Shown here piece by piece: positions 17,015-47,889 of a DNA stretch of 64,000 nt. This DNA comes from Thuidium tamariscinum (taxonomy: Eukaryota > Streptophyta > Bryopsida > Hypnales > Thuidiaceae). The stretch covers positions 47,025,682-47,089,681 of the forward strand of contig OX344749.2 of the NCBI GenBank assembly GCA_947034885.2, given 5' to 3'. Position 1 is the stretch's first letter. The number at the start of each line of letters is the position of its first letter. The notes beneath the pieces are model-generated. The model made no database searches. It was not told the origin of the DNA and was given only the letters and a program-made list of their open reading frames with translations. The position numbers were made by a program, and so were the translations under genes.

Positions 17015-17127
17015 TCAACATCGCTCTAGAATTGATCGAATGCTACGTTGAGCGATGAGGACACAATACTGTAAGTAATCAGAGATTGAAGCATCATATT
17101 TTCGTTCAGGTTCAATAGTGCACTTAC

Positions 17128-18333: not shown

Positions 18334-18337
18334 TTAA

Positions 18338-18364
18338 AACCTATATTTAACTAATTATGGACAA
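18338..18364 (+). repeat. Left terminal inverted repeat of the composite element
   Basis: 27 bp pairing with 47859-47885 (mismatches at positions 4, 5 and 19). A partial 19-nt tandem duplication follows (ATTATGGACAA repeated at 18373-18384). Its second unit continues the match into ATAGTC of the right end, so the ancestral inverted repeat was probably 40 bp or more. Confidence 0.75.
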
Positions 18365-18579
18365 TTGCATGAATTATGGACAAATTCATAGTCGCAAGCC
18401 ACCTGAGAACGTGGAAAAGACGCTTCAAATGATGGAAAAGTGTCGGCAGCCCACCCACACCTTGTTGAGAACGAGCAGTTGCATAAGAAAGGAGAGGATT
18501 GTTGACTGTTGGAGCGTTTTTAGTGGAGTATCAAAAGCGGTGCCTAAAACCGTGCACCCATCCCGTGGCCAATGACATG

Positions 18580-19166
18580 TATAGGCTGGCAGCTGATAAG
18601 AGAGCAAAGTAAAGTGCGCCAGAAGAGTAAAACAGGACAACGAGCATGACATGTAGAGAATTTCCTACACCGTTTGTGCACTGAAGATAAAACAGTTGCA
18701 ACATGGTCTCCATAGGAGATTCAGATAAATATGTAAAGAAAGTACATAAACTCGCAGCAAGTGCTAAATGCAAGGATCTAACAACCGACGAGGACAAAGT
18801 ATCGCCTGAGAGAGTAACGTCCTCCGTCTAGCCCTGTCGGCAGCCAGCCGACAAATACGTAAAATGTGAATTGCCTAGTCATAAGACTTGTAGTGCCATC
18901 CTATGAAATATAAAGGCTTTCCGTAAAATAACATAAAGCCCCACCGAAGAAGATAAGAATGCACATCCTAAAATGAGTAAACATTGAGGACCTGCACGTA
19001 ATGATCTTAAAGTGAACATTCTGCTGACGAACCACGCGACCGTGATGCAGCCAAGCCCGTCGTATCGGCTGGCAGCCGACACCTGTATGGAGAAGACGAA
19101 TCCGTGTTGCAATGTGTTGTTGACATAACTGGAGAGCACAAATGGTGTATCGGCTGGCAGCCGATA
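18580..19166. repeat. Palindromes 1-4 (3' side of the minus-strand genes)
   Basis: Four 19-bp sites: 18580-18598 (TATAGGCTGGCAGCTGATA, degenerate), 18835-18853 (one mismatch in the arms), 19063-19081 and 19148-19166 (TATCGGCTGGCAGCCGATA, perfect 9-bp arms around one central base). They lie downstream of the last coding segment at 19186, in a presumed 3' UTR or terminator region. Confidence 0.9.
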
Positions 19167-19185
19167 AGTCCGAGTCGATGTATCC

Positions 19186-19833
19186 TTAATTGTCTCCGGC
19201 ATCGTCTGCATCTCTGTCGAGAGTTGCACCCGCGGCCTCTAGATTCGCAATAGCAGCAGCAACGGATGCCTCCGGGATGACATGAGACGTGGGAGGTCCT
19301 TTCTTTGCATGCGAGGGCATTCTGTGCGAGTACAAGACAATGTTGACATGTACCATCTGCGGAAGACAGAGTTCCTTGTGCCATCTTCGAGTCCAGCACT
19401 CCCTCGCAATAAGCGCTTTGGACTCCCTTTTTGCTTTCATGGGAATCCACCACTCGATTTTAAAGTTTCCATAGGTTGGCCCCGGAGTCATGTCTACACA
19501 TTCGAGTACTCGTCCCAGCCAGACAGGCAAGTGGTTGTTGTGACATGGTCGACAGAGCACAAAGTCTCCGAGGAGGACATCCCTGAATGGATTGAATCTC
19601 AATCTTGGCCTGTCCTTGGCAGGTCCGTAGTATGGAGTGGGGTCCCCTTCGTCCTCCGGAGTGGTGTCCGTTAAATAATTTTCGAGCGCCCCCTTGTCTA
19701 ACGATGTGGATGCGTGATCCCTTGTCCAGTCCGAGAGCGGCCATAATCCTTTTTGAAGCACTGCAGGAGTTTGTAGCAGCAGTGAATTGATCTCTGCTTG
19801 AATTCTTTCCCAGTAAGCCACACAACCTGTCAT
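19186..19833 (-). CDS. C-terminal extension of the DUF7869 gene, behind an in-frame TAG
   Basis: 215 codons in the same frame as the DUF7869 exon to its right, separated only by TAG (19837-19839) and one codon. The middle part, VLLGDFVLCRPCHNNHLPVW then LGRVLECVDM and FKIEWWIPMK, resembles a small beta-barrel reader or tail domain, with GDFV and WLGRV strands ending in WW. The last 30 residues are Ala- and Asp-rich. It could be the true C-terminus if the TAG is a mutated Trp codon or the end of an intron. It could also be a separate ORF starting MTGCVAYWERIQAE. The domain assignment is inference from pattern only. Confidence 0.45.
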   Translation of the reverse strand: MTGCVAYWERIQAEINSLLLQTPAVLQKGLWPLSDWTRDHASTSLDKGALENYLTDTTPEDEGDPTPYYGPAKDRPRLRFNPFRDVLLGDFVLCRPCHNNHLPVWLGRVLECVDMTPGPTYGNFKIEWWIPMKAKRESKALIARECWTRRWHKELCLPQMVHVNIVLYSHRMPSHAKKGPPTSHVIPEASVAAAIANLEAAGATLDRDADDAGDN

Positions 19834-19836
19834 TTC

Positions 19837-22075
19837 CTATGCGTATCGTCTGTCTCTGGCCATTCCCGATTTCCAGAATTCAATGAATTTCGCGATTCCG
19901 TTTTTAATGAATGTCTGTTTCTCATTGCACTCTGTGGCCCTTGCGACTTCCTTTTCCGCGTTTCTCTTTCTTGGATTAATGTCTACATTTCCCCAGAGTG
20001 CCTTGAAAGGCACAGGTCGAGGTTCCCCCTGAGGAATGTTGGGTTTCCCATTTTCATCCGCTGTCCACATTTTGACGGGTGGTCCAGGAGGGAGCCATGA
20101 AGAATCCGTGGCCCTGACCTTGTACCTCATGACCGGCCATCCCCGATCGACCCCATCCTCTACGACGTAGAACTTGAATAGGTGTTTATCTCCTAGCCCT
20201 ATGATTTTGTTGACCCCCTCATGATGGAATCCTGTGAAGTATGATTTGAAGTCCGCCACCTCTTGCACGAACTCCGGAATGAAGGCTACCGTTTTCTGTG
20301 AGTCCATGAACGCCTTCATGAGATCCGCGAGAACGTAAGTGTTCTTCCTCTTGATGAGTTTCGAGAGGTAACTGAAGTGCGCGTCAATGTCCTCGTGCGT
20401 ATGTCCGACAATGAGGAATCCGACTGAGACTTCCTTGAATATGCGCCTGGCAATGAGCAGTGAGCAGAAAGCCATGAGGAATCTGTTCTTGTTGTCCTTG
20501 GCCGAATTGTTGAGTTGCAAGAAGAGTTTTTTGGGCAGTGGTACCTAAGGTTGCCCTGGCGTTGGTGCGTCTGTGACCTTGTCCGATGACTGCGGGATTG
20601 ACGAGCTGCATCTGGATTTTCCATGTAGTAGAGCCTCGAAGAAGCTGTTTAGCGGTGGAGTGGAGAAGAGTATCTTTGATTCCCTTACAGGAGGTAGTTC
20701 TAGGGCCCTGAGTACCCTGCAGATGGATGAAATAGTGAAATTTGAATCCCCCGGCCAGAGCGATGTTGAGTAATGCGCGTATGCGCCATCTCCATGTCCA
20801 TGTGTGAGCATTCCAGTACAAGAGATTGGAATTTGTCCTAGTCCTGCGATGGCCTTTGTGATGCGCTGCATCCTGGGAATGGCAGTCTTCGTGGTGTCCA
20901 TTTTGTCATGAATAATGCAGAGGAACTCTGATGGATTCTGCACCGACTGCGCAGTCCATCCACTGTATACATTTCTACAAGCGCGCTGGTAATTGAGATG
21001 TCTCTCTCTGTCGTCGACGAGTGCCTGCCACTCATCACAACCTCTGGGATACTTTGCAATGAACTCTACGAGGAAGTCACACTCTGTGCATTTTGAGAAA
21101 TTGCTCCCTACTGCCTTGACCTCTACGTTTTTGAAATGAGCATTTCGAAGTCAGCTGATAGCAGACTGGGATACCGGCTCCATATTGCATATTCCATTGA
21201 CCTGAAGAACATGACTACATGGATGAGTATCCATGTAAGACGATAGAGTTGTATCGGCTGGCAGCCGACAGAACTGCGAGTGCCGTCCTACAGAAAGGAA
21301 AGATCTATGACTGCTCGCTTCTAAGTCTAGCCTTGAATGTATCGGCTGGCAGCCGACAGAGAGACATTTATACTGTAGACGAGGAGGCAGATGTTGGACT
21401 TACATAATTGACTTGTTCGCGTATGTGATCCCAATTCATTGCAGAGGGTAGGACCTTGAGATTGTCGACGCGTTTATTTCCAACCATTCTAAACTCATTC
21501 GGCATCTTGTCTGCATTCTCATCGATGATCGTTTTGAGTGTCGCTTGAGCTTGTATTGTTTGTGGCCGTGGCCGTCGAGCCCCTGCATTTCCATGCGACC
21601 CGTTGACGGATCCTCCGGCGGCCGCAGCCTTGTAAACGTGATAGGCCGACCTGGATACCCCGTGAATGATATACCATGCGTTCTCGCAGACGTCTCTATT
21701 AGCAAGAGTGATGAATTTTTTTCCTGGAATACTCCCTGCATGAAGTTGACTCTGCACCGCATACGCTACCTCCCTCCTACTCTCGAATGTGCAAGCGAAG
21801 AACTTTTGTCGTATAGACCTGGTGTCCTCCCAGGGAAAGGTCTGGCAGCATCTGAGCTTACAGCACTTCTGTGAGCTGACCTTACGTACCTCGGCCTCCG
21901 AGGTCTTGATTTGCAGCCTAGAGTGGCTCTCTTGATCCTTGGGAATGACCCTTCTGCGCACAGAGCGGTATGGATTCCTCGGTACCCCCTGCATTCCGTC
22001 ATCGTCTGCCTCCTTCAACAAAGCAGCCTGTGAGCAAAGCGCGACAATTTCTGATAGTAGCCTTCCCCCCTCCAA
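19837..22075 (-). CDS. DUF7869-domain protein (putative transposase-like), spliced
   Basis: Three exons. Exon 1 runs from 22075 (or further upstream) to 21404, exon 2 is 21201-20689 and exon 3 is 20544-19840. Introns 21403-21202 (GTAAGT...TTCTTCAG) and 20688-20545 (GTAAGG...CCTTAG) are both phase 0. Exon 1 has a Cys-rich segment (KCCKLRCCQTF) and NRDVCENAWYIIHGVSRSAY. Exon 2 has KCTECDFL and HDKMDTTKTAIPRMQ, then HGHGDGAYAHYS. Exon 3 has LQLNNSAKDNKNRFLMAFCS and VGHTHEDIDAHFSYLSKLIK, the hallmark DUF7869 motifs. That family is multicopy in plants and animals and is suspected to be transposon-derived with an RNase-H-like fold; its biochemistry is unknown to me. Exon 2 has an in-frame TGA (21151-21153) just before LRNAHFKNVEV, where a Trp would fit, so this copy may be inactive. 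Two palindromes lie in the first intron. Confidence 0.75.
21252..21358. repeat. Palindromes 5-6, inside the DUF7869 intron 21202-21403
   Basis: Sites at 21340-21358 and 21252-21270, both TATCGGCTGGCAGCCGACA on the plus strand. Read with the gene, they start at intron positions 46 and 134, and 50 nt remain to the 3' splice site. In the RNA each could form a hairpin with one G-U pair. Confidence 0.9.
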
Positions 22076-22093
22076 TCTTGTGTGTGTGAGCTT

Positions 22094-23335
22094 CTAGCGC
22101 ATGGTTGTCATTTGCAGTTCGTGACTGTCCGATATGAACATGACCCCAACATCCGTGTCGCCCAGGACGCCATCATCGCAAGCCTCATCTGGTAGGCAAA
22201 CTTGTATCATGGCTCTTCCCAGTACCGAGAAGTCGTCATTGAGAAGTTGACAGTATTGATTTCTCCAGAGCGGTCTATCTGGGATTGGAAGTCCATCTTG
22301 CACTCCAACCGGATCGGCATTGTCACCCCTCTGAGTACTATCTCTGAACGCATCCGAATGATCTATGCTGTCAGCAACACTTGCGTTGGACGCGGCAGTG
22401 CCAGAGGTGCTGTAACCATGAACATTGCGCTGGTCGTGTGTAGACCCGCGGCTGTCCTCGTCTGACGAATAGAGTCTATCATCTCGCTCGTCTTCGTCTG
22501 ATGCAGTAGGAAGTAGCTGCTGTGGTCCCGGATCACCGAGTTCTATCTGCACATTGTTCGAACTTCCACCACTCTCATAGTTCCCATCGATCTGAGGCTG
22601 CATGAAATTGGTCGCAGGTGCTCCTGTCGGCTGGCAACCGACAACGTTGGCCAAAGGGACAGATGACTGGATTGGTCTGACCTTGTAACCACTCCAGAGT
22701 ATTTTGTATCCTACACAACGTTTGAGTGAGATGAAATCAGGAATCTCGCAATAGGCAGTGTGATTCTTGAAGTCATCGACGACGTGTAGGAGCTTCACAA
22801 CGAGGAAGAAGCTGTGTGGAATGCGGAAGCCTCCCCAGTACCCCTTCGGGGAGCACTCTACAATTGTCCCTACACCAGCATAGAACAGAGTGTCGCCCAG
22901 AGTCTGGAGAAGTGAGACATCCATATTGACAGTGAGTGACAGAAATTGCTGTATGGGTTTTTCATCAGTGAGCACTTGTGTCGGCTGCCGGCCGACAGCA
23001 GCAGCAGAAGACCATTCCGCGTCTGCGTGCGGATAAACGTTGCCTGCCTCCCACACGATTGAGCTTCCCGGACAGTGTCTGAGGAAAACCATGTCTCCCT
23101 CCGGAAACGGAAGAGGCATATCGAGGTTGTTTGGAACATCTAGGATATGAACGCGCACGAGGTATGGATCGCGGTTGACCACCCTTTCTACGACCGCCCT
23201 TCCAGCGTAGTATAATCCTTCCAGTGTGAGAGCCACAACAACTCCCTTCTGCAGTTTCAGTCTTCCGGACCCGCCATTTCTTGTGAACGCCTCAATAGGA
23301 TTGGCACCCGAGGTCCATTCATCAGAGCCACTCAT
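22094..23335 (-). CDS. Unrecognised 413-codon ORF of the composite element
   Basis: Starts ATG at 23335 (MSGSDEWTSGANPIEAFTRN). Two segments look like related beta-rich modules: GVVVALTLEGLYYAGRAVVE (residues ~30-50) with GDMVFLRHCPG, and LFYAGVGTIVECSPKGYWGG with VVKLLHVVDDF. A linker rich in Ser, Asp and Gly (residues ~255-345) leads to a third such segment, CQLLNDDFSVLGRAMIQVCL. I do not recognise the family. Two palindromes lie inside the coding sequence and read VGRQPT (22979-22997) and VGCQPT (22625-22643). The ORF ends at TAG (22094-22096). The same frame then stays open into the DUF7869 exon, so the two may be one gene. Two more palindromes lie 65 and 130 bp upstream of the ATG. Confidence 0.6.
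   Translation of the reverse strand: MSGSDEWTSGANPIEAFTRNGGSGRLKLQKGVVVALTLEGLYYAGRAVVERVVNRDPYLVRVHILDVPNNLDMPLPFPEGDMVFLRHCPGSSIVWEAGNVYPHADAEWSSAAAVGRQPTQVLTDEKPIQQFLSLTVNMDVSLLQTLGDTLFYAGVGTIVECSPKGYWGGFRIPHSFFLVVKLLHVVDDFKNHTAYCEIPDFISLKRCVGYKILWSGYKVRPIQSSVPLANVVGCQPTGAPATNFMQPQIDGNYESGGSSNNVQIELGDPGPQQLLPTASDEDERDDRLYSSDEDSRGSTHDQRNVHGYSTSGTAASNASVADSIDHSDAFRDSTQRGDNADPVGVQDGLPIPDRPLWRNQYCQLLNDDFSVLGRAMIQVCLPDEACDDGVLGDTDVGVMFISDSHELQMTTMR
22625..22997. repeat. Palindromes 7-8, inside the 413-codon ORF
   Basis: 22625-22643 (TGTCGGCTGGCAACCGACA) and 22979-22997 (TGTCGGCTGCCGGCCGACA). Both are translated in the same phase, giving VG[C/R]QPT. Each has G-C at the second arm position and one arm mismatch. 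Confidence 0.88.
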
Positions 23336-24528: not shown

Positions 24529-25621
24529 ATGGCATCCTCCGGTTTGGCAACAGAGAGGTACTTTTTCATTACATGTATTGGCTGCCAGCCGATACATTAT
24601 TATTTGTCAATTATTTTGAATGCAGCCATTGAGAGTCTGGGGCACCTGTGGGTTGCTGTATCGGCTGGCAGCCGACAGACATGGGAGCGCTCAGGTAACT
24701 CCTGAGCTCATGCGATGTCGGCTGGCAGCCGATATAAATCTGGGACAGTGGTCTTACGATGATCTGTAATTGACTTGGGATGGTAGGGTTTAGGGACTGT
24801 GGCTGTATCGGCTGCCAGCCGATACACTAGATGCACAAAGTGGAGTTACATAGTGACAACTTACTGAGAATTGAAATGTATTGTTTTGTAGGAAACCGAC
24901 TCTGTTGGCCCGAATGCTGGGTGAGCAAATCCCGAACTCTGGGATTTTGGGTGACGGGTTTCCACCACGAGCTACATGGCGAGGGATCGAGGCCATCCAG
25001 GAATGGGGCCTGTGTTGGAGGCAGGCACCCGACAAAAAAGTGGACATTGCATGCTCCTTCAAGTTGAAGGGGAACATGACCCCTGGCAAGGGAAGTGTGT
25101 TGTCCGTCAGGGCTGCTGGCGAGTGCGTGCATGTCATGATATGCTTGATGCCAATAGCAAGCACGGTCGGAGTCCCTGACTACTTCGCCATGGAGTTGCC
25201 GGTGAACAAGTGCACGGAGGAGGTCTGTGGACAGAAGTCCATGTCCATGGGCATGACATTTGGCGGCAACACACCGTCGTCTGCAGAGGAGCTCATCCAG
25301 GGGTGGGAGTACTTGAAGCAGGAGCGCGATGAGCACAATGCGTTCGTCGCTCGTGAGCTGGAGAAGGGGAAGAAGAAGGTACCGGCGGAGAGGAAGTTGG
25401 TGGCGGTGACAGTGGCTGAGGTCGCTGAAGCCGATCTTGAGGAGCCAGCGTCCCCGACCAAACCAAAGCGGAGAGGAAAGGGCAAGGATGACCCGTCGAA
25501 GCCGCTCAAGCTCACATTAGACAAAGCACTCCGCCGTGGAAATCACCTCACCACGAAGACCAAGGAGAACGAGGTGAACGCCATTTACCAGGCGCTGGAG
25601 ACGGGCCTCCTGCACGCGTTT
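24529..25621 (+). CDS. ParB-like/methyltransferase-like gene, 5' part (exons 1-2), broken by CACTA-1
   Basis: Exon 1 (24529-24557) encodes MASSGLATE plus two bases. It joins exon 2 (24892-25621) through a GTACTT...TTTTGTAG intron, giving R at the junction and KPTLLARMLGEQIPNS next. Phases agree exactly (29 + 730 nt = 253 codons). Exon 2 contains a globular region (VDIACSFKLKGNMTPGKGSV and on), a Lys/Glu-rich linker (RKLVAVTVAEVAEADLEEP, KPKRRGKGKDDP) that may hold a nuclear signal, and ends LETGLLHAF. At that point the CACTA element begins. Without it the frame runs straight into 42060 (PYKKQRLPGVIHSDKL), where the ParB-like domain starts. As it stands, the frame would stop four codons into the transposon. 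Confidence 0.7.
24576..24824. repeat. Palindromes 12-15, four copies in intron 1 of the ParB-like gene
   Basis: Sites at 24576-24594, 24659-24677, 24716-24734 and 24806-24824. The intron is 334 bp (24558-24891), so four sites lie in one intron at 57-90 bp spacing. The first and last have central C on the sense strand; the middle two have central G. Confidence 0.9.
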
Positions 25622-28600
25622 CACTACAAGAGATGACAGTGTTTTCAAGCAGAGAGTTCAGTATCAAATTACTGAAATGTCCATTTCGTTTGCTACAAGG
25701 TCACACATCACTGTAGACAGGACAGAAACTGTAATGTCATCGCGAATTTCAGCATAGACTGTTGCAACAGTGTCCTTTTTGGTCAGCTATGTTCGTTGGT
25801 CCTGTCAGTAGTTTCTCGGCAATACCTTCAGAACGCAAAACAGGATTCCATTTCCTCGAGAATTGCATGTCCATATTTACTTTGAGCTGTAAATGTAAAT
25901 AATGCAAGAGAGGAAAAATCGGCTGCCTTCACTTTGGCATTTTCAAGATTCGGAAATTGAAAAGTGCATCCACCCGCAGTGCCGAAAACGAGAAAGTTCT
26001 GGATTTAGTTATTTCCACGCAGTTACCTTCCATGGATATTGAAGACAACGAAGTGCCGAAATTGGAATCCCTGAAACACCTGACGTCACTAATTCCAGCA
26101 ATCTCTTCTCCCATTCACGTCATGGACGAATACATTTCATCCCTTTCCTAAGGCAGTGCCATCATTTTGTTTCTTCTCGCTCTCAGCAGTGAAAACAAGG
26201 AACCATTCAATTTGACATCAGTTAATTCATAGAATGAAGCGAAGTTATTCTTACCGTCCACTCCACCCTCTGCTCACTGTAGATCAATTTCAAATACATA
26301 CGTATAGAAAGTTCTTGAAGACAGCCATGTATCCGAGCACATTCAAGGGCTTCAAACAATACATAACGAAGATCAATGACAGAAACAGACATTTTTCTTC
26401 GAAGAACTTGTCCTCCAAGAATGGCACATTCGACATATTCGAGGCTAAGCGTTCCTTTGCCTCACTGGCAATACTCTCTGCTTAAGTAAAAAGCCGGACC
26501 TGTGGAACGAAAACCGCTTCAACTTTCAAAAACTCCTGAAGAAAATATGCTTGTACTTGCTAATTCATTCCCTTGGTAAACAGATGTGTTCAACCTACCA
26601 CTTCCTTATAGCCAAAGCTACTCATGACATACAAACCTCTCTCCTAGGCTCTCAATCGGCAATTCTGCGCAATACTTGGCGCCTACATCACCATGTCCGA
26701 AAAGAAGGCTTCACTACCACCTCCTTGCATTTCTTAAACAGGAAGACTCGTACTTCCCCTGTGCTTCGGAGGTCACTCTGCACATAACATATGCAAGAAT
26801 CTATGAGTCGTTTGCTCTTCGAGTCCATACTGACGACATCCCCCCAAGTATACAGAAAGTACTACTCAGACTTCATATTTACGGTCTGTAAATTACTATT
26901 GTCAGGACAAAACTGCACAGGGTTCAAAACTTCAATTTGTGACCCCGACTTCAGAAATTTGTATTCCACTTATCAAAACATGTCATAGGGTCCGAACTAA
27001 TTATGTTAACATCAGCCACGTTAACTTTGAAACCTCAATTGCCAACTGAGGATTCACGAGAACATGACGTAAACCACTGCAAGCCCTGCCTTCGGCATTT
27101 GCAATTCCAAGCATACAATTCCTTGGCCACCTTCTAGCTACACAGAATTCCTCACTCAAGTGCTGTTCAGCATATTAATGTACAGCATATGAGATTCAAA
27201 ACCTGCTGACCTTGCAATGGAGTTTGCATTAGGAACACACTGTCAACAGAAATACTGATTCAGCGTCGAAACTGCAAAGTCCACCAACACTTCGACATTG
27301 CATACGGACATACACTACCTAGTCAGGGTTGCCTTGCCATCATCTACTAAATACATGCAAGATTTAGAGCTAACTCGTACCTCCACTTCAGTGCTTTCCT
27401 GTCATTGTTATGGCCATGAGTCTCTATGAAGACCTTTCCTCTGAATATACAGAACTCCAGTTGACACTGCTCTTGATAGTCGACATTCACTTCGCCAGAT
27501 CATCGACTCCGCCCTCGCGACTGAATTATTTGTCTCTGCAAATTTTATTCATGATGTCTTCTCCATTGGAAAGCTCTACCTTGCGCTCAACAAGGATTCT
27601 TTCCCCCTGCACTTCAACTTCCACAAATCATTTCTACTCTTCTCGGTCGGGAAACAAATTTCAATCTCACGAAATTAGTTCTCATCAATAGACTAGTACA
27701 TTTAGTCCTAATTAAACATTAGCATTTATAAACATACAAAGATCACTTCGTCAGTAAGGGTTTAGCAAACAGGGATGCAGGAATTAATGTACACCTCCTT
27801 CTTACAACACGATATCCTTCGCGTGCATGACACCCCGAAAATAGTGTCCACTACTTCTCAGAAGCTTCCTTTGACCACCAAAGTCTTGAAAAATAGAGAA
27901 CTGCACCCGAATAACATAGGTTCCCTTATTCCTAATGTCTTATTGCCCGCATCAATACAACAAGTGAAACCTTAAGTAAAATCTGCGTACCGTATCCTTC
28001 GCACATGGTGGACTCGACGTCATCCAGAAAGCGTTTAATTCTCTCTGGATATTGCTTTTGTTATATCCTAAATAACATATGCTCATTACTGCCACCAGTT
28101 TGGAATATCTTCGTGTACCTTCTTTTGCATGCACACTCCAGAACGTCTGAGCCAGTGCAAACCTCTGTCTTTTGTCATTGCCTGTTTCGCGGTATTCAGT
28201 GTCTCGACGCCATTGCTGCATCAGTGCACATATATAGATACAAGTTCTCGCAATCGACACCTGTCCAAGAATTCAGCTACTTTCAAAGGCTAAGGAACTG
28301 TTCATTTCAAACACAATAAGTCTTGGAATTTGCAGTACTCAAGACAGTACGTACTGAGGACATTTCTGAACACTTGCATAATGAACGATCTAATAGCATG
28401 ATTACATCTTACAGAGTCACTTGAATATAAATTTATGTCGGAGGGAAACAAGAAGCTCAGCAACCACTGGTTCTACCACTTCATGCAATGATCCAAGTTC
28501 TGGACAACGGCAACATCGTCCTCCCTCCACAAAGGAGGTCTGCATATGCAAAGTTCGTACACTCAGCATTAAAAAGAATTAATCTCATGTCATCTGGAGA

Positions 28601-37257: not shown

Positions 37258-37269
37258 TTGTCCACATGC

Positions 37270-40200
37270 AGAGTTGAGTCTACAGTGGGTCTGAAACGAA
37301 GTGGGAGAGGTGTCGTTACTCCATCGAATAGTCATACAGAGCGTCGTCGTAGTGCAAGGATTGCCTCATTGTCTGCATCCAATCCTAGGTTGACAAAACT
37401 GCAAGAAGTGAGGAATTCGAAGGAAATCAAGTCGGTGTTGCAAACAGGACAGAAGTACTGGACGGAGAGGAAGGAAGAGAAGGAACTGCTGGACCTCGAG
37501 GAAGAGTATCATCGGGTAAGAGTTTATAAATTACTTAACATGGACAACGTTCTCATTTTTGAAATTGAAGCTGCATTTTGAAGATCAAATTCACGGAAAG
37601 AGCAGCTTGGGTTTTCCACATTCTCATGACTTGCAATTATTTCTCGAAAAAGTAGGTGTCAGTGGAAGTGATTACCAGTATGGAGGGCAACAGAGAAGTC
37701 GTAGCCGAGTATTCAACAGATTCTTCTTCAGGTAGTTTCGACGAAGTGCATGGTCGTTCCGTCGGAGAGTGCAGCGAGACCTTCATGTCCGAAGAAGTGC
37801 TGCCGCAATATCTAGTTGTGAAGCAAGCGCCGCCTTGTAGTCCAGTCGACGTGCAGTCTCTAACTATGCAATCCGCGTCCGTTTTTGGTGCACAATTGCA
37901 AGAGTTTATCATGCAAGCATTGATGCAGTCAACAACAGCTATTGGAGGACGAATTCCTGCTCTGCTGCCTTCTGCTGAAGCTCGCTCGACTGGCACACCG
38001 TTGTTGTGTACTGAAGGTCTTCCGCCAGCAAGTCAGTGGAGCGAAGGTGCTTTCAACAAAGCCATTGTGCGGCGAACTAAGAAGCCACACATGGAGAGGA
38101 CATCAGCAGGGGAGAACTCCGATTCCCAGACTGATTTTCCTGTACCTGAAAATGAAAGCCCGCACGAGAAGTCCTTACGAACAAGGCGACTGAACAGGTG
38201 TCGAGGGAGGAGGGCCAAGGAACTCACCGCTAATAGAAAAGCAGCAAAGAAGCTACCATACGTGATTCACGTTGATGGCACTTGCAAGGCCAAAGGGATC
38301 CACAGGCACAAGTGGCGTGCAGCAGTGCGTGGACAGTGTCAACGCCTTGATCCATCCCTGGATAATATAAATCATCATCCAAAGCATCTTGTAGATAGCA
38401 TATGGCATGCCCTCGAGAAGGAGTGGGAGTTCGAGGGATATGGTCATAGGGCGCGCGAAATGTTTGAGCGGTGTGCCACGAAGTTCATGAGGAACAGGAA
38501 AATGCAATTGAAATACAAGTGGCAGAGAAGTGTTGAAGGCAAAAAACCAGATGACATGAATGCTGTGCACTGGGCTAAAATAGGAGATATAGCAAAGAAT
38601 TCAGCCAGGCAAGCGACATCGAGCGGATGCATGCTGAGTGCACGAAAAGGAAAAGAGAAGTTAGCAACAGATGCGGAGCAAGTTCACAAGACACCACTTC
38701 TGTTGCTGGTGAGTTTGATACGGTCGCACTGAAAAGTCTGTACAGCTTTATTGTTAAGGAACCTTTGTACTACGGAGGAGCCGGATGTTGTTGAGGGTGA
38801 ATGTAGGCCCCGCTGGAAGAGATGACTACGTTCACGACCCTTGTTGTAAGAAAACTGACCGTGCCAGATTCAAAGTTCAAGTGTTGGTGGTGGTAACATG
38901 CGCTGCGGTGGAATCTGTTGAGGAGCAGATATTAAAAGGCATTTTCGGGATGTCTTAATGAGGCGAGAATGCTGTATGCGAATCTTGTCCACAAGGAGTT
39001 CACGTATAGAAATTCTGTTTAGTTTGGTAGTCGGGATCTATATATTGCATTCTGTCATGGTCGGCATTACAATGAGTTAAGGATTTCAATTTCCTTGTGG
39101 TGCTAGAGCTGCGGAAACGAAAGTGGCATTACCAGTGAGAAGTCTCGAAGTGCAAGTAAGTCGAAGTTTCCGGAAGATAACAACGTCGAAGCAAAAATTA
39201 AAAGTCTACGAGAGGAACTACTGAGGCTTCAAAACTACCAGGAGGTGATGATGCTCTCGTTGAATTCCGTATGTCGACTGTCGTCAGTGTTTGTTTAGGG
39301 TAATTTTAATTAAAAAGTTTCAATTCAATGTTTGTTCTATGGATTGCGCATTTGAATGGGATGGAAGGTGGCCTTTAATTTCATCGTTAGCGACTTCATG
39401 TACCCGTAATTGTTGTTCGGAGGCAGTCTAGGAATGGGTTCAGCATGAAGAAAATCATGTGCAGGAGGGATGTGGCATCGAGATTCACAGAATGTAAAGG
39501 AATCTGAGTTCCGTGAGAGAGTTTTACCTGCATTCCCGTGCATGTGCAGGTCGGATGTGCTTTGCAAGGCGGCATGGCTTCCACCGGTCAAATAGTCCCG
39601 ACAGTGCACGTCCAGGAAGTACTAGGAGGGAGAGGTAAGCGTTTATCACTGTAGGGAATCCGAAGTGTTTCAGTCATATTACGTGAAATTGTGATTAAAT
39701 CCACGGTCTTCTCCTATCATAATAGTGAATGCATACGTGGAAGTATCAATTGAAAGCACAAGAACCTCCATGTGTGACGTGGTATTTTGCAATGAAAGGC
39801 TTAGAATTCAAGAACCTGTTTCAGTCGTGGTCAAGTTAACCGTGAAATACCGGAAGATTATGTCACTGTGACGATGTTGTGAGTAACTATCTTAAAACTG
39901 CATGGCAAAGATGAGTTGGGACATATACGAAATTGAAGCTCAGTAAGACGATGTCTGCAATTGATCATGATGTGGAAGTCCAAGAGAAGAGTGTTTTGTG
40001 AAGAAGGGCTGCTGTCGAAGACTTGTTAATTCCAAGAAGAGAGGACTGCTTGAATTATTGACGTACAAGACGATGCTATGTAGTTGCGAGGTGAAACTGC
40101 AGTCGGTTACTTTGCAGTTTGAACTTGCATAGGAAGTTGCGTATAGGGAAATAAGAAGACATGCACGTCATGCACGCGGAATTTTCTGTGAACCTGAACG

Positions 40201-41310
40201 GGAGAGTGGAGCTTTACCAGTAGTTTGTTAGTGAAAATTTGAAACAAAGCTAAGTGATTTCAAAACTTGGATGATTTTGACTTGTACCTGTGATTTTGCT
40301 CGGGTGCAGTTTCTGAAGGTATGAAGGAGAATATAGTCCCATGGAGTGCGACTGCGCACTATGCTCAATTGTTCGGAGAAGCGCCTTCGGAGATGGTGCC
40401 AAAAATAAGCAGCGAGGAGGCGCAGGGGAAGTTGTTGAGCCCTGCCGGGAAAAAGGGGAAGTCCCCAATAATTGACGGTTTCCAGTCGTCTCAAAAAGAG
40501 AAATTTACAGCGAACATCATCCACAGTGAGGTAATAATTTTCTCAATGCAATCACGGAAGTTGTGCATCTAACGATACTGGAATGCAGTATAATTCTGTA
40601 ACTGGTCCTGATCATGGGTGATCGTCACGGAACTCACGGGATGAGGTGGTCTGTGGGTGGTGGAGGACGGCCGTACAATGTAATTCAGAAGACGAATTAT
40701 TAGATATTTACTGTGACCAGGAAGTCAAAGTTTGTTTTGAAGCCTTTATTGGTACAAGGAGGAGAAGATTCTGATTAATTAACGTGTTGAAGAGCCGAGT
40801 AACTGTTGTACCCTGGAACCGTGAGGGTCATTCTGGATTTTAGAACAATTCCCTGAGCGAATGAGTATTCATTAACTTTGGACGAAGTAGAGAGAATTGA
40901 TCTGCAAGAATTACATTTAGCAAGTCTATCATCAGAGAAGTTGATGATGTTCTATGTGTCCAATTCTATCTTGTTCGTGTCGTTCACTAGAACTATTCTA
41001 AAAGGGACATTGAATGACTCGCATGCAGATGGAGTGTGGTGATATGGTTCGAATGTTTGCTGTGATAGCTGGAACAGAGAAAGAGGTCGGCAAGGGAATC
41101 GTCATGGGCTTGGTGGGTTCGAAGTTCTCAAAAAATATCATTCTAGAAGGATGGCGCGCAGTCAAAATAACGGCGAACACATATACCGGAGCTGGTCAAG
41201 TCTGCCCGCTTCCAGCAGGATGGACGGAAGTTGCCAAGAGTCGCACCATTAAGGAAGCGAATGGTCGAACTGTGCTCTGGCCGGATATGCTTCTGCATTC
41301 TCTGCTTTGA
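37270..41310 (+). CDS. TNPA-like (Transposase_24/TNP1-type) gene of CACTA-1
   Basis: Exons that can be read: about 37270-37515 (basic, RRRSARIASLSASNPRLTKL, then a coiled-coil-like KEEKELLDLEEEYHR, donor GTAAGA); 37656-38708; a short one near 39100-39174; about 40310-40530; and 41029-41310. The second exon has a Ser/Glu-rich start and a core typical of plant Ptta/En/Spm proteins: YVIHVDGTCKAKGIHRHKWR, then LDPSLDNINHHPKHLVDSIW and MFERCATKFMRNRKMQLKYK. The last exon has the TNP1-type C-terminal module EVGKGIVMGLVGSKF...VLWPDMLL. TNPA-type proteins bind subterminal repeats and cooperate with TNP2/TNPD. The exact 5' end and exon joins are uncertain. Confidence 0.75.
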
Positions 41311-42056
41311 ATATGCAGTTCACGTAGCAAATCCTGTAGTAGTCGTTTCCATTTCTAGGCAGGTTGCATCAGCACTTTCATGAAGGCGACTCATCTCTGA
41401 ACATCATCAAGTGAGGCATAGAATAAGTTCAATAGTTCATGTTTTATGTTATAAATGTTCACCTCCTGGTTCTTGAAGTTTTATTTGTGACTGAGGCTCA
41501 GTCGTCCTCTGCCTATGCATGCAGTGGAGAGCTCTTTACATAGTGATGAACGGAGGTGCAAGTGTCAATGTTTTTTCTCACTGTTCGTGAAGAAACAGCA
41601 TTAATATAAAAATTGCTTGCTCATGCATTGTGTGAGCTCCTGCTACTGTTTCGGAGACTGCTACTGTTTCGGAGAAGCATCTTGCGGCCTGTGAGTTCAG
41701 GTCCTTTGAACAACCGTCAGGAAGCCCTTGGTTGCATAAAAATCGGAGACAGAAAAAAGAATTACTTCAGACATTGCCAAGTGTCAAGAGAGCAAAGCTT
41801 AAAACAGAAATACACATTTGATGGTGGAAGTAACTACCATGGTCAGAATCATTAACCTGAATTACGCACTACTGTATTTGGATTCTTTAAAGTCATTGTT
41901 TTTGAGTCGCAGACCGTTTCCACATCCTTTCAGTAAGTACATTAAGGCGTGTCCTAGACACAAGTTATTCAGCATTCTGTACTTAAAGCACACGTCCTTA
42001 ATGTAAGCAATTTCTGCCTTAAATTTGCTCTTAAAGGACCCCAGTCTCTTGTAGTG

Positions 42057-42059
42057 TTT
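42057..42059 (+). repeat. Target-site duplication TTT of CACTA-1
   Basis: TTT directly after TAGTG, matching TTT at 25619-25621 directly before CACTA. In the host gene this is one Phe codon (HAF), present twice because of the insertion. Confidence 0.9.
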
Positions 42060-43847
42060 CCATACAAGAAGCAGCGTCTTCCGGGGGTAATTCACTCGGA
42101 CAAGCTCCACATTGCACCGGACGAGCTCAAGTATCGGAAGATTGCAAAGGACCGGCTGGGACAGGTAATTGGATGATCACTTCCATCTGTCGTTCATCAA
42201 AGTCATTTCATATCTTGTATCGGCTGGCAGCCGACATGTCTAACTAGTCATTAATGTTTTGGCCTTCTGTCATTTCAGGTGAAGACCATGTATAAGGGAT
42301 ATGGGTCCATCAGGAAAAAGCCGGAAATTCATGGGGTTCCACTGAAGCGGGCTCCAACGCCCAAGGACAAAGGGCTGGACGTAGTGATGGACAAGTGTCC
42401 CGGGCAGGAAGAACTCACTGTTGTCAACGGCGTCTCAATGCCGTGGTGGAAGGCGCCGGATGTCCACTGGTACATCATTGGAGGGCAACACACGGTGACG
42501 GCCTGCCGAGAACTGGCCGAGCAATATCCCGACGGCTCTGAAGCCAAAACGGACCTCCTGAAATTCGAGGTGATTCCGGTGTTCAGTAGAGACCCGGACA
42601 CACTCGTCAGAGTCTCTAATGCCCTCAATCTCAACATCGCTGAGAAGGTGGCAAAGGAGAACTTCAGATCCTGCGCAGAGATGGGAAGAGCGGCGTGGGT
42701 GAAGGCGGGATACCCAGAGCCGCATCGTGGAGGAGGCAAGCCGACAGCAGCATTCGAGGTACTACCCTCGCATCCTTTCTTTCTATTCGCATTTGCTCAT
42801 TACGTTATGTATCGGCGGCCAGCCGATACCTTTGTGCTCTGTTCTAAGCATTGTGGTTGAACTCAGGCTGCGAAGCTGAAGGTGATGGCGCACTTTGTGG
42901 AGGAGAAGGTGTCCTCCAAGTTGCCACTCATCTTCATCAAGGAGGGCACCTGGGAGCTGTGGACGGAGGTCTTCGATGCGTGGGAGAACGGCGAACTCAT
43001 TGGCGATGATGGAACGGTGCCCAATCTCCTGGTCAACCGGAAGCCGCTCACGCACATCACCAAGACGGATCTCACGCCAACGCTGGGGCTTCGTGATTCA
43101 GATCTGTGCGAGTTGGGACGGGAGATTGTGGCACTTCGCGTCAGCATCAAAAACACCGCCAAGGCCAAGTCCTCAGGGAAGATCACTCTCTTCGACTGGT
43201 GCAAGGACAAGAAGCTCGACAGGATCGTCATGAACGAGATCATGTGGACCAGGAAGAAGTACCCTCTTCCTTGCAAGGACGCAGGCTGGATCCCATATAC
43301 GGATGAGGTTTGGAAGGAGCTGGCTGAAAAGGAGGGGTACTCAGCGGCCGTAGTCCGGAATGTCTGGAAGGACATGATGAAGTTCACGGACGCAAGCAAC
43401 TGGTTGAAGGGCCGAGTCAACCCCATGAATCCCACCACGGACAAGTCCACGGATGGCAAGGCGCCGGGGGTCTTCTTCACGACTTTGGCAAGCTACGTCA
43501 AAGTCCCAATGCCTACCACGGTAGGCAAGTCAAGCGAACTGCAATATGAATGCCATGTCGGGGACAGTATTGCAGAGGTGGTGGACTTCGTTTGCCAATC
43601 GAAGGGGACGATGAAGCTGGAACCCGAGGACAAGAAATTCATCGTCGTTTTCGGGTATACAGAAATGGGGGAAGCTCTAGCGGTGAACAGGAACGAGCTG
43701 CTCGATCTATCGTTGGCAGCTGAAATTTCCGACGGGGAAGCTGATGAAGACAGAGACCCTTACATCCCCCTGCCAATGCTCCTCATCGGAAACTCGCGGT
43801 TCAGGAATTCAGTCGCCTCGGCCGCGAACTCATCCTCCACCGACTAG
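42060..43847 (+). CDS. ParB-like/methyltransferase-like gene, ParB-domain part (exons 2b-4)
   Basis: Exon 2b (42060-42164) continues the frame of 24892-25621; exon 3 is 42279-42758 and exon 4 is 42867-43847. All introns are phase 0 (GTAATT...TTTCAG, GTACTA...ACTCAG). PYKKQRLPGVIHSDKLHIAP, then MYKGYGSIRKKPEIHGVPLK, then WYIIGGQHTVTACRELAEQY matches the ParB/Srx-type core, where G-x-H-R-x-x-A is usual; here GGQHTVTA replaces Arg with Thr. FEVIPVFSRDP and NALNLNIAEKVAKENF follow, as in phage ParB-methylase fusions. Exon 4 has a helical region (LGLRDSDLCELGREIVALRV, LFDWCKDKKLDRIVMNEIMW). The frame ends at TAG (43845-43847) but is open again immediately after. ParB domains bind palindromic sites and hydrolyse CTP or cut DNA. 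The role here is inferred; nuclear location is likely. Confidence 0.7.
42218..42236. repeat. Palindrome 16, mid-intron
   Basis: TATCGGCTGGCAGCCGACA in the 114-bp intron 42165-42278, at intron positions 54-72, with 42 nt left to the 3' splice site. Confidence 0.92.
42810..42828. repeat. Palindrome 17, mid-intron
   Basis: TATCGGCGGCCAGCCGATA in the 108-bp intron 42759-42866, at intron positions 52-70, with 38 nt left to the 3' splice site. Confidence 0.92.
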
Positions 43848-45099
43848 TACTACCATGCGGTGTACTACCATCCATCTCCCCGGGGAGGCTTTCTAAAGGC
43901 AGAGATTGAGTCCAGGCCTCTGGTTACTCTCTCCTTGACCTTCCCGAAGCCCGAGGACAGGCTCAGTGTTTTCCCGGTCTTCAAGCGCTTCACTGGGGTC
44001 CACAAGGCGCTCGACTTGTTCAATTTCGACGTCGAGGGGGAGGTCGACTGGAATGGCGGGATGTGCGGGGTCGGCCATGGGCTCCTCGAGAAACTCATGC
44101 TACCCACCCTCAAGGCCAAGGATGCCACAGTCATCAACATCTGGGGTGGCGGTAACATCACGGAGATCGCTCTAGTACGTTTTCGTGTCCCATCCTCACA
44201 CTTGCATTGTTCTCAGGAAGTCACTTTCTGTCGGCTGCCAACCGATACAATTGATGGCTGACTTGCACTCCATGGCTTTGCAGAGGAATGGACGGGCTGT
44301 CATGGAGTTCGTTCGGGAGGAGGAGGGATTGGAGAAGGCCAAGGAACGTGTCAGGGGAATGAACCTCCTCTCCTCGGATGCCCTGGGACCTTCTCAGGTG
44401 ACGCTGGCGGTGACAGACCACGAGGGGCAACCGGCACGGGCGCAATCTCCTCAGCAACCGCGGCCGTTGTCCACCCTCGTTCTGCCCCGGGCTCCGGGGG
44501 CCGCAGCTCAAACTCAGCGGCCACAGGGTCAGTCTCAGGAGCAACCACCACTTGTGACGGTTGATACTAACTCAGACTCAGAGAGCTCCCCAGAAGCAAC
44601 ACTCATTCGAAGGGAACGGCAACCACGTCCTTCGTCTCCGAGGCCTTCGCTCAATCCACCCCCGACTCAAGATCTAGACCACCCCATGCTGCTCCCACAC
44701 AGAAACTCCTCGCACGCAATAGTCGTGGATCTACGTGCCGAGCCACCGTCGGAGGAGATAAGCAGGCTACCTCTGCCTCAGGTGGTCGTCGCGGCGACGG
44801 AGCCTCAGGTGGGAGTCACTACACTTGGGCGACCGGCGACTATAGCCGACATTCGTGTCGGCGGCCAGCCGACACCCATGGACACTTCTCCGCCGGAACC
44901 AAGACGGGGAAGGAGCAAGGGGGCACCACTAGAGAAGGAGTCGGAGTCGGCGGACTCGCGCCGCTCAACTCGGGTCTTCTTCAAGCGGAAAAGATCAAAT
45001 GAGAAGGACACTGGCGCGGCAGCACGGACGCAGGACTTCCCCAACAAAGAGATGTCTCCCGTCCGATCTCAGAAGAGGACGCAGACTGGAGGTTCGTAG
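43848..45099 (+). CDS. ParB-like/methyltransferase-like gene, degenerate MTase part and disordered tail
   Basis: Same frame as 42867-43847 but behind a TAG. Exon 43848-44174 is followed by a phase-0 intron (GTACGT...TTGCAG, 44175-44283) and exon 44284-45099. Joined across the intron, KDATVINIWGGGNITEIAL meets RNGRAVMEFVREEEGLEKAK and ERV. This follows the last block of N6/N4 DNA methyltransferases (normally D-P-F-x-G-x-G-T, then L-G-R-x-x-x-G-x-E, then A-x-x-R). The acidic and Pro residues of the SAM motif are lost, so it is probably not an active methylase. The tail (residues after ~930) is Pro/Ser/Gln-rich, then basic (RRSTRVFFKRKRSNEK), and looks disordered and nuclear. One palindrome is coded in it as VGGQPT (44856-44874). 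Whether the TAG is a true stop, a lesion or the end of an unmodelled intron is open. Confidence 0.6.
44229..44247. repeat. Palindrome 18, mid-intron
   Basis: TGTCGGCTGCCAACCGATA in the 109-bp intron 44175-44283, at intron positions 55-73, with 36 nt left to the 3' splice site. Confidence 0.92.
44856..44874. repeat. Palindrome 19, in coding sequence
   Basis: TGTCGGCGGCCAGCCGACA, read as VGGQPT in the tail of the ParB/methyltransferase-like protein. The phase is the same as in the two coding copies of the 413-codon ORF. Confidence 0.9.
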
Positions 45100-45234
45100 G
45101 CAGTAGACATGCTCCGCGATGTTTGTGGAGTATCATACATAGTTCATTCATAAGTAGAACTGCCTGGCTCAGACTCATGCGTAGACATGTCAGTAGGAGC
45201 CGTTTTGGGGGCAGACTAGACTTCCTCTCGACTA

Positions 45235-45304
45235 TGTCGGCTGCCAGCCGATACAGTGCAAAAATGTTTTGTCGGCTGCCAGCCGATATAGTGCACAAAT
45301 GTTT
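45235..45304. repeat. Palindromes 20-21 in a 35-bp tandem duplication
   Basis: TGTCGGCTGCCAGCCGATA at 45235-45253 and again at 45270-45288, each followed by a near-identical AGTGCAMAAATGTTTT segment, so the repeat unit is 35 bp. They lie in the intergenic region just upstream of the candidate ATG (45299) of the FCP1-like gene. Confidence 0.9.
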
Positions 45305-46204
45305 TGTCATCTAACTAAGTTCATACCATCTCATGTTCTATGTATTTCGTGTGGCAATGCAAATGATGACTATCAAAAGTCTGACAATTCCTCCGACACC
45401 CTATCAGAAGCTGGGAATGACAATGTCCAACAACAAACACAAGACAGAGCACGGACTCCCGACAGTGCTGGCCCTGCTCAAGTAGCGACTCCGAAGTTGT
45501 TTCTTTTCCTTGAAGTTCAGGGAACTCTACTTTTCTATGAGCCACTCATTGTCAAAGGGAAGAGTATGACTCAGAGGTCGACAGTCAGAGAGAGACCAGG
45601 TCTTCGGGAGTTCATCCTCTTCTGTAAGGGTCAAGACATTGTGATTGTCTACTGGTCAATCTTAACCAAGAACACTCTCGAGCAGCGCCTCCATAGCCTT
45701 AGATGGAAGGCGCCGGAGATCGGAGAGGATTACCTGGCCTTTGGACAGGAGTTCTGCGACGAGAGTACTTATCGGGACCCTCAGAATGCATCGCGACCAA
45801 TTTTTCTGAAGCGTCTCGCAAGAATTCTCGGCGCATCCTCCTTGTACGATATGGGCGCCACGATCAACAACTCATTGATCGTGGACTCGGAGCCATATAG
45901 GAACGTCTTGAATCTGCCGTTTAATGCGATTCATCCGCCCCTCGTCACCATGTACTCGGAGAAATCACTCAAGGCAGGGAAACTGCCATTTCTCCAGGCG
46001 ACACTGATCCCGTTCATTGAACGGCTCTTGTCTTCGGGACTCACGGTCGCACAGTTCTGTGAGAGGAACTCGTCCACTGGGCTTGCACGATGTATGCCGG
46101 GAACCCCGATGCATAATCAGTACGTGAATGTGACACCGCACTATCAGAAGGGATTCGAGGTGCCATATTCACAGGAGGAGCTAAAGGCCTTGAGTATGGC
46201 ATAG
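45299..46204 (+). CDS. FCP1-like HAD domain protein, catalytic residues lost (exon A)
   Basis: Starts at the first in-frame ATG (45299); a spliced start is also possible. After a Ser/Asp/Gln-rich leader of ~60 residues comes KLFLFLEVQGTLLFYEPL, the position of the FCP1/SCP D-x-D-x-T motif, here E-V-Q-G-T. RERPGLREFILFCKGQDIVI, VYWSILTKNTLEQRLHSL and LIVDSEPYRNVLNLPFNAIH follow, matching RPGL, W[ST] and DDSPY in the family. FCP1-like enzymes dephosphorylate Ser in proteins such as the RNA polymerase II tail. With the nucleophile and acid/base aspartates replaced, this one should be a pseudophosphatase. TAG ends it at 46202-46204, and the frame is the same as that of exon B. Confidence 0.7.
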   Translation: MFCHLTKFIPSHVLCISCGNANDDYQKSDNSSDTLSEAGNDNVQQQTQDRARTPDSAGPAQVATPKLFLFLEVQGTLLFYEPLIVKGKSMTQRSTVRERPGLREFILFCKGQDIVIVYWSILTKNTLEQRLHSLRWKAPEIGEDYLAFGQEFCDESTYRDPQNASRPIFLKRLARILGASSLYDMGATINNSLIVDSEPYRNVLNLPFNAIHPPLVTMYSEKSLKAGKLPFLQATLIPFIERLLSSGLTVAQFCERNSSTGLARCMPGTPMHNQYVNVTPHYQKGFEVPYSQEELKALSMA

Positions 46205-46234
46205 CCCACGCGAACGGATGGAGGAGGCGTAGTG

Positions 46235-46562
46235 TATCGGCTGCCAGCCGACACACTCTTGTGTACATTGTACATACTCTCTGTAGATACAGCACGGATA
46301 GACCAAATCTTCTAGGAACATTTTTTTCTTCTGTATGGATTAAACATTTTTTTGTAATCAAGACATTATAGTCAGAGTTCTTCTAAAGCGTGCGCATGGC
46401 TCACTCTCAAAGCATTCCAATGTTTCCTTTGAGAGTTGCATCATTAGGTCTTGGGGCAGGCACTCACTCATCTCTACTGTCTTTCTAGCACATGTCTCTT
46501 TCTCAACAATTAATGCTTCCTGTTGTATTGGGTCAGGCTCTAGTATCGGCTGCCGGCCGAGA
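46235..46562. repeat. Palindromes 22-23 between the two FCP1-like segments
   Basis: 46235-46253 (TATCGGCTGCCAGCCGACA) and 46544-46562 (TATCGGCTGCCGGCCGAGA). If exon A splices at GTAGTG near 46229 to the CAG at 46636, both lie in one phase-0 intron of about 408 bp. Confidence 0.85.
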
Positions 46563-46636
46563 CCTAATGCATGCTCTTCTCTTATCGGATGCTTTTGTTG
46601 TGGAGTCATGTGTCCACTAACTTATCTTCTGTTCAG

Positions 46637-47287
46637 GAGTCCAACGTGGGCCATACACAGTCCTTCAAGAAATGTGTGGTTCTAGGAGTCACGGGACTAC
46701 TTTGTTATCTCGACCCGAATATCAAGGTGGACAAGGCAGACCTACACAGAAACGTCATTAAAAGGCCTGGGCTAGTTCATATGTTCAGCACATTGTTTCA
46801 AAAGTTTCACGTAGGAATTTGGTCAAGGTTGCCAATACTTCAGCTTAGGCCTCTGCTTGCACACTTGCTTCCAAAACAAATCAGAGACAACATAGCATTC
46901 GTTTATGGCAGAGAGTACTGCGTAGATAGCCTCAAGTTCCCGTGGTGCTACAAAATGCTCTCAATACTACATACTAAGAGACCATCCAGGATTACATGCT
47001 TCACGGACCAAGTGCTCATCGTCGATGTGTGCCCACTTGCGCTCAGGAGGACGCCGGATACGGCGTGCTATATTCCGAGACCATTCAAGGGAGATCTCAA
47101 TTTCCCAAACACTAGTAGAGTTATTCCAAACATTTCAAATGATATTATTCCATTCATTTATCCAATGCACCAATATCAATCAGTCTCAGAATACATCAAA
47201 GGCGCACAGAGACCGGGACAACTGCACTATGAGGTTGCACAATCTATCAAGTATGGAAAGCCGAATTGGCAGGGGATATTCTGGTGA
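46637..47287 (+). CDS. Second FCP1-like HAD domain, catalytic residues lost (exon B)
   Basis: Begins after a CTTCTGTTCAG acceptor with ESNVGHTQSFKKCVVLGVTG and runs to TGA (GIFW*). KKCVVLGVTGLLCYL stands where D-x-D-x-T should be, and no aspartate remains. IKRPGLVHMFSTLFQKFHVG and IWSRLPILQLRPLLAHLL keep the RPGL and W-S marks, and LIVDVCPLALRRTPDTACYI takes the place of DDSP. It is related to exon A but far diverged. It is either the second domain of the same protein or a tandem paralogue. Palindrome 24 starts 15 nt after its stop codon. Confidence 0.65.
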   Translation, partial: ESNVGHTQSFKKCVVLGVTGLLCYLDPNIKVDKADLHRNVIKRPGLVHMFSTLFQKFHVGIWSRLPILQLRPLLAHLLPKQIRDNIAFVYGREYCVDSLKFPWCYKMLSILHTKRPSRITCFTDQVLIVDVCPLALRRTPDTACYIPRPFKGDLNFPNTSRVIPNISNDIIPFIYPMHQYQSVSEYIKGAQRPGQLHYEVAQSIKYGKPNWQGIFW

Positions 47288-47301
47288 TTCAGCAAACATT
47301 G

Positions 47302-47840
47302 TGTCGGCCGCCAGCCGATACAACGGCAGTGGAATCGGGGAGGCTACAAGACCCTTTTTCAGAAATTGGAACAACTCATTTCAGAGCCAGTCCTATCGAG
47401 TCCATTGCCTCTTCACTACAGGACCTGCTCTCTGGAGTTTTCGGGGGGGGATATCGACTGACTGCTGATACGCGCGATTTTATTACTTGGGTCGGATGGA
47501 CTAGGGTTTAGGGTTTAAGGTCGACAATTTGTCGCGCTTCATCTTACAAATGAATGCCGTAGCACTTTACGCACTTAGGACACTTTCAGAGGTCTAGGTG
47601 CTCTAGTGTGTGATGTTAGGAATCGGCTGCCAGTATCAGGCGCCAGCCGATACTTTGTCACAAATTAGGACACAACACACGTGTTTATTTAACAATAAAA
47701 GTTCATAAACTATTATCTCTCAACTCTTTTATGGGCCAGGTGTTGTGATACTTTGGTTTCTTTAGTGCTTGCAGCCATTTTGGTTCATTGCTTGTGGCAC
47801 ACAAAACTATGCATTCGACTATATCGGCTGACGGCCGATT
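47302..47840. repeat. Palindromes 24-27, 3' end of the composite element
   Basis: 47302-47320 (TGTCGGCCGCCAGCCGATA), 47452-47470 (TATCGACTGACTGCTGATA, degenerate), 47622-47652 (both arms present but split by an extra ~12 bases) and 47822-47840 (TATCGGCTGACGGCCGATT). The last site is 49 bp inside the right TTAA. Confidence 0.85.
47502..47517 (+). repeat. Interstitial telomere-like motif
   Basis: TAGGGTTTAGGGTTTA, two full plant telomere units. It lies in the 3' region of the composite element, about 370 bp from its right end. It may be a telo-box or a trace of repair. Confidence 0.6.
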
Positions 47841-47858
47841 TATTTCTGGACTATGGAT

Positions 47859-47885
47859 TTGTCCATGATTAGTTAAATATTAGTT
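47859..47885 (-). repeat. Right terminal inverted repeat of the composite element
   Basis: Reverse complement matches 18338-18364 at 24 of 27 positions and is flanked on the outside by TTAA (47886-47889). The match goes on inwards as ATGGACAAATCCATAGTC against the second unit of the left end. Confidence 0.75.
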
Positions 47886-47889
47886 TTAA

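Follow-up and report, generated by a model that had tools for sequence, protein, structure and literature searches.

The 64,000-nucleotide stretch of Thuidium tamariscinum DNA analyzed here (contig OX344749.2, forward strand, positions 47,025,682 to 47,089,681; referred to as the window, whose own coordinates are used below) contains a multi-copy cut-and-paste transposon with terminal inverted repeats (TIRs). This element lies at 18338-47885 and carries a DUF7869 gene (gene 1), a gene for a ParB-like/methyltransferase-like fusion protein (gene 2), two further open reading frames (ORFs D and E) and many copies of a 19-bp palindrome. Our account, which we hold to be rather probable as a whole, is that of a DDE/D transposon with a DUF7869 transposase, palindromes read by the gene 2 protein, and pseudophosphatase helpers.

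First, the boundaries were determined. An earlier note on this DNA had proposed inverted ends with TTAA outside them, enclosing a self-contained element of about 13.1 kb that a CACTA transposon had entered later, and the analysis bore this out. The left TIR (18338-18364, plus strand) and the right TIR (47859-47885, minus strand) were identical at 24 of 27 positions, and the target-site duplication TTAA flanked them at 18334-18337 and 47886-47889. The CACTA (En/Spm) insertion at 25622-42056 (16,435 bp, target duplication TTT) lay inside exon 2 of gene 2 and was missing in all seven other full copies aligned. The element measured 13,110 bp once this insertion was subtracted, with exact ends.

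The note had also suggested a search for further full copies with identical ends, and these were found in the same genome. We examined 22 clusters, namely the window, 11 clusters fetched whole or in part, and another 10 fetched at their predicted ends; the fetched clusters were chosen among the first 100 palindrome places listed. Both ends were available for 13 clusters, which comprised the window, 7 of the 11 fetched whole or in part and 5 of the 10 fetched at their predicted ends; in the remaining nine, one end or neither was found or lay within the fetched stretch. The ends of the window copy recurred in all 13 two-ended clusters, with no more than single-base differences. The seven other full copies were 13.0-13.5 kb long and showed 91.6-99.1% identity to the window copy in the aligned pieces. 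The copy number was about 40 full-copy equivalents (620 forward palindrome matches divided by 13-18 per full copy), a rough figure that includes partial copies.

A perfect 4-bp target duplication was present in 12 of the 13 two-ended copies, the exception being C1:31.37 Mb, and no two were alike (TTAA, ACTT, ATAT, CTTT, AGTT, AAGC, GTGA, AAGA, ATTT, CAAT, GTTT and ATTC). The target duplications were thus not sequence-specific but AT-rich, with A or T at 37 of 48 letters. TTAA occurred in the window copy only and is thus one insertion's target rather than a general rule; the preference for TTAA that the note had assumed, and its expectation that other copies would be flanked by TTAA on both sides, did not hold. 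Since the twelve duplications differed, the comparison with piggyBac falls as well.

Empty sites were sought by joining the flanks of the 13 two-ended copies through one duplication and comparing them with the fetched loci; two self-matching rows (C1:23.43 on L009 and C3:29.07 on L030) were removed. A relative that crossed the junction was found for five of the 13 insertions. The empty site was clear for C2:11.85 Mb (six loci at 72-81% identity, with GTGA itself in four) and for C4:28.21 Mb (77% over 651 columns, GTTC in place of ATTC). It was fair for C1:23.43 Mb, where ACTT was present, although the flanks sit within an inverted repeat, and weak for C3:19.48 Mb (TCTT versus CTTT, just 22 bases past the junction). 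The grade for C1:31.37 Mb was unclear. No empty relative was found among the fetched loci for the other eight insertions, including that of the window. The empty sites that the note had called for thus exist in the same genome as paralogous sites with one copy of the target, but this single target was not TTAA.

The palindromes were then analyzed. The 25 dispersed 19-bp palindromes TRTCGGCTGSCAGCCGAYA lay between 18580 and 47840. A search of the whole window for TATCGGCTGSCAGCCGATA with at most three mismatches gave 25 matches, compared with 0.00 expected in 100 shuffles. All 25 were between 18338 and 47885, none in the CACTA part and none outside the element, so that the note was right in calling the palindrome private to the element. 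Genome-wide, with at most two mismatches, there were 620 forward and 630 reverse matches, while the reversed control gave 0 and 0. By the predicted exons, 7416 of the 13,110 bp code for the products of gene 1 or gene 2, and 3 of the 25 palindromes lay there. The five predicted introns each contained at least one palindrome; together these introns, which make up 6.6% of the length, held 9 sites (binomial P 2e-5). The two half-sites varied independently (observed 73, 54, 22 and 20; expected 71, 56, 24 and 18), as for a dimeric DNA site. A side observation is that the neighboring palindromes at 45235 and 45270 share a similarity longer than the palindrome.

Gene 1 was read on the minus strand. 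Its exon 1 (21404-23335) contains two in-frame palindromes and forms one open frame in the intact copy; its intron (21202-21403; splice sites by eye) contains two more palindromes, and the frame is open across it in the intact copy. Exon 2 (19186-21201) encodes the DUF7869 domain, an RNase H/DDE core and a BAH-like C-terminus. The uninterrupted gene, found in the copy at C1:23.43 Mb, encodes a protein of 1315 amino acids. The DUF7869 match (PF25273) had an E value of 2.2e-30 on the single exon, and of 7e-40 (137.1 bits, cut-off 26) on the complete protein from the intact copy. The model of this protein had an RNase H/DDE-like core with D, D and E/D residues, as in RNase H-fold transposases, and its best matches were Mos1, SETMAR and integrases. 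In the window, gene 1 has premature stops, exon 2 included, and one of the conserved acidic residues in its catalytic core is missing. Gene 1 was parsed by script in five of the eight full copies, of which one was uninterrupted and four were broken.

The gene set given in the note therefore stood in part: the DUF7869 match and the NIF/FCP1-like match are present, but its 413-codon ORF is the start of the DUF7869 gene, split off by a premature stop. Its statement that the set matched no known transposon type was partly overtaken, because the DUF7869 protein folds like a DDE transposase. DUF7869 relatives included proteins of mosses, a liverwort and a lancelet. The C-terminal part of one relative (P0001, L010:1488-3500) modeled like a BAH domain (or MazF), and P0113, a relative from a lancelet, carries an N-terminal Ulp1 protease domain. 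No mention of DUF7869 was found in a literature search, and no relatives were found in viral contigs with the alignments of gene 2 (A2) or of the DUF7869 protein (A3).

Gene 2, on the plus strand, encodes a product of 1155 amino acids from five exons. Exon 1 lies at 24529-24557. Exon 2 begins at 24892-25621 and resumes beyond the CACTA insertion at 42060-42164. Exon 3 (42279-42758) contains the ParB-like motif IIGGQHT, recognized by eye. Exon 4 (42867-44174) encodes a DNA methyltransferase-like domain, and exon 5 (44284-45099), which matched CcrM weakly (E 0.033), encodes the probable end of that domain, followed by a long tail that contains one in-frame palindrome. The predicted fold was that of a methyltransferase, like the beta-class DNA methyltransferases. 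DPPY is the catalytic motif IV of beta-class DNA amino-methyltransferases, and this motif ([DNS]PP[YFW]) was found in none of the 13 rows of the gene 2 alignment A2, some of which are partial. Gene 2 gave no profile match to a ParB family, and the structural model was unusable in that region. ParB Box II is GxxR in the accessible part of PMC12704722, and exon 3 reads GGQHT there by eye.

By sequence, gene 2 had no significant match in Pfam, PHROGs, NCBIfam, PDB or 50,697 phage records. No full-length gene 2 was found at E 0.001 among the 7991 predicted-protein candidates scored; the known relatives are single exons, too short for a full-length search. The window gene 2 contains the CACTA insertion and a premature stop. 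Intactness was parsed in the window and three other copies, and those three were intact.

Traces of the palindrome were also found in diverged relatives. Where the reading of gene 2 relatives runs into the intron after TEIAL, the palindrome appeared in translation as PVGRQPI, YRLPADI, YIGRQPI, VGWQPI, CRLPADT and LSAASRY. Strict patterns gave 8 matches in 132 proteins, compared with 0.05 per shuffle and 0 reversed; they were composed after the first traces were known and so are not an independent test. Six of the eight followed the TEIAL boundary and two were in the tail of P0132, and all came from 4 of the 12 gene 2 relatives. Relaxed patterns gave 20 matches against about 0.5 in shuffled sequences, yet 5 in reversed ones. 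These relaxed traces occurred in the gene 2 relatives P0125 and P0126, whereas P0123, P0124 and P0131 had none, though they read past the TEIAL boundary. Among gene 1 relatives, P0001 had two relaxed traces ahead of exon 2, P0006 (Ceratodon) and P0010 (Physcomitrium) had two each, which matched the two coding sites of gene 1 in spacing and neighbors (by eye), and P0007 had one at a gene 1 coding site and another elsewhere. These traces point to a site that was kept over long divergence while its center changed.

ORF E (46640-47287, plus strand) is NIF/FCP1-like, with a match to PF03031 at 46571-47287 (E 1.3e-7; 31.8 bits, cut-off 21.8). ORF D (45371-46204, plus strand) had no Pfam match of its own but was related to ORF E by BLASTP (26%, E 0.005). 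The motif DxDx[TV] is catalytic in FCP1/NIF phosphatases, and it was absent from both ORF D and ORF E as translated from the window. Neither had a significant PDB match by sequence.

Coding constraint was estimated as the ratio of nonsynonymous to synonymous substitution rates (dN/dS), by simple counting between a reference copy and six others; the window was omitted because of its CACTA insertion. In gene 1 the ratio ranged from 0.26 to 0.37, and in gene 2 from 0.19 to 0.30. The pooled values were 0.31 for ORF D and 0.26 for ORF E; individual comparisons, based on few changes, reached 1.2 and 0.84, respectively. Changes between copies were mostly synonymous in all four ORFs, and thus the gene set kept coding during the spread, despite gene 1 being broken in four of the five parsed copies.

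The following mechanism is proposed. The DUF7869 protein would act as the transposase that cuts at the TIRs and joins with a 4-bp stagger; excision and integration of this kind would follow from the parts described above. The gene 2 fusion of ParB and pseudo-methyltransferase would be a DNA-binding reader of the palindromes, with each half-site bound by one subunit of a dimer; for the recognition of odd-length dyads, a protein that is both ParB-like and methyltransferase-like is the obvious candidate. The gene 2 protein may coat or mark the element and thereby maintain its activity, like the VANC anti-silencing proteins of VANDAL elements, and ORFs D and E, as NIF/FCP1-like pseudophosphatases, may assist at the level of transcription or chromatin. 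The palindromes may serve the element as sites of self-marking or self-protection. We infer that palindromes and gene 2 together form a putative self-recognition system for anti-silencing or coating. For its origin, a history somewhat short of even odds, and so put forward tentatively, is that one lineage of a DUF7869 transposon superfamily of bryophytes and animals acquired a prokaryotic or phage ParB/methyltransferase fusion, disarmed it to a DNA reader, and came to carry, in its introns and spacers, about 25 dyad sites specific to the lineage as a parS-like or anti-silencing address that co-evolves with that reader.

The chief rival to palindromes read by gene 2 is that the transposase itself binds them and gene 2 does something else. 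In En/Spm, transposase sites occur as subterminal or internal repeats. Here the last palindrome is 45 bp from the right end, the gene 1 relatives of Ceratodon (P0006) and Physcomitrium (P0010) carry in-frame traces with changed centers (VGCPPT twice; VGGPPI, IGGPPT), and no named moss protein was among the matches listed for gene 2. However, the palindromes are spread across the whole 13 kb and every predicted intron and are not crowded at the ends, and gene 2 is under purifying selection (dN/dS 0.19-0.30) and so is not a mere passenger. We regard transposase binding as unlikely. Against a site kept over long divergence, single palindromes were no better conserved between copies than their flanks; purifying selection on them was sought but not found. 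This lack of extra conservation is what functionless remnants multiplied by local duplication would show. Such remnants are nevertheless improbable, given that the likeness of most site pairs barely exceeds the palindrome itself and that, in gene 2 relatives with 39-50% identity, the same intron boundary is followed by traces with the same core.

A role of the palindromes as RNA hairpins, in splicing or transcript stability, would suit their presence in all five predicted introns. In transcript orientation, the pair formed by the second and penultimate bases was G-T in 54 cases and A-C in 22 over seven copies, which is the direction expected if G-U is tolerated. However, independent halves predict 56 and 24, copies of the same site are not independent, and a count by hand on the 26 sites of one copy gave 7 versus 4. 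Because the half-site counts fit independence, hairpins are very improbable. A further alternative, which would assign the element to a class and is compatible with the palindrome account, is that of a deeply diverged Sola superfamily member with extra genes. Sola2, compared by description only, has 4-bp AT-rich duplications (ATAT, AAAT, ATTT) and TIRs of 12-21 bp in the available text of PMC3627910, and the A/T count of the duplications found here agrees with this; we consider Sola membership possible but doubtful.

Other features were noted in the surroundings of the element. A small cysteine-rich ORF at 17015-17485 on the minus strand resembled a lipid-transfer protein by eye. Tandem repeats of 157 bp lay at 3521-5067, with inverted copies 0.6-1.2 kb off. 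Inverted arms of 36-40 bp at 15011-15077 and 51520-51587, about 36 kb apart, flank the whole element. A strong change of GC skew at 52000-64000 resembled that of the CACTA element and is perhaps another large transposon.

Finally, the element was compared with known systems. Literature searches on ParB and transposons, Sola, VANC, and BAH with transposase found no description of it, a statement that extends to these searches. According to the accessible part of PMC9587614, piggyBac and Kolobok also make 4-bp target duplications, and Kolobok has 5'-RR ends as here; both are TTAA-specific and were excluded, since TTAA was found in 1 of 12 duplications. Sola elements share the 4-bp AT-rich duplications (PMC3627910) and have DDD/E transposases (PMC9587614); the portion of PMC3627910 available names no ParB/methyltransferase or NIF/FCP1-like gene in them, whereas the present element has both. 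The same joining of domains is seen in fusions of ParB-fold and N6_N4 methyltransferase domains, which are commoner in phages, while the commonest eukaryotic ParB-fold protein is sulfiredoxin (both from the available sections of PMC12704722). Here, in contrast, the fusion is in a eukaryotic transposon and lacks DPPY and the Box II arginine. Fungal DNA transposons that carry TET/JBP genes (PMC12730594, available part) likewise have an extra gene of a DNA-modification family, but with different transposases and a different enzyme.

In motif placement, with sites in introns, spacers and terminal parts, the element may be likened to VANDAL21 of Arabidopsis and its protein VANC21. In the part of PMC5735166 at hand, an element-encoded protein is described together with a short motif that has accumulated in the element's own introns and intergenic and terminal noncoding parts, and that differs among related elements. 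VANC motifs are short (YAGTATTAY) and often tandem (PMC5735166, same part), whereas here a 19-bp dyad is mostly single and dispersed, and the present element has a ParB/pseudo-methyltransferase protein and a DUF7869 transposase. The element offers a concrete reason to read DUF7869, a widespread domain of unknown function, as a DDE transposase. It also provides a second candidate for the VANC type of self-recognition by sequence in plant transposons, one in which both protein and site are defined.
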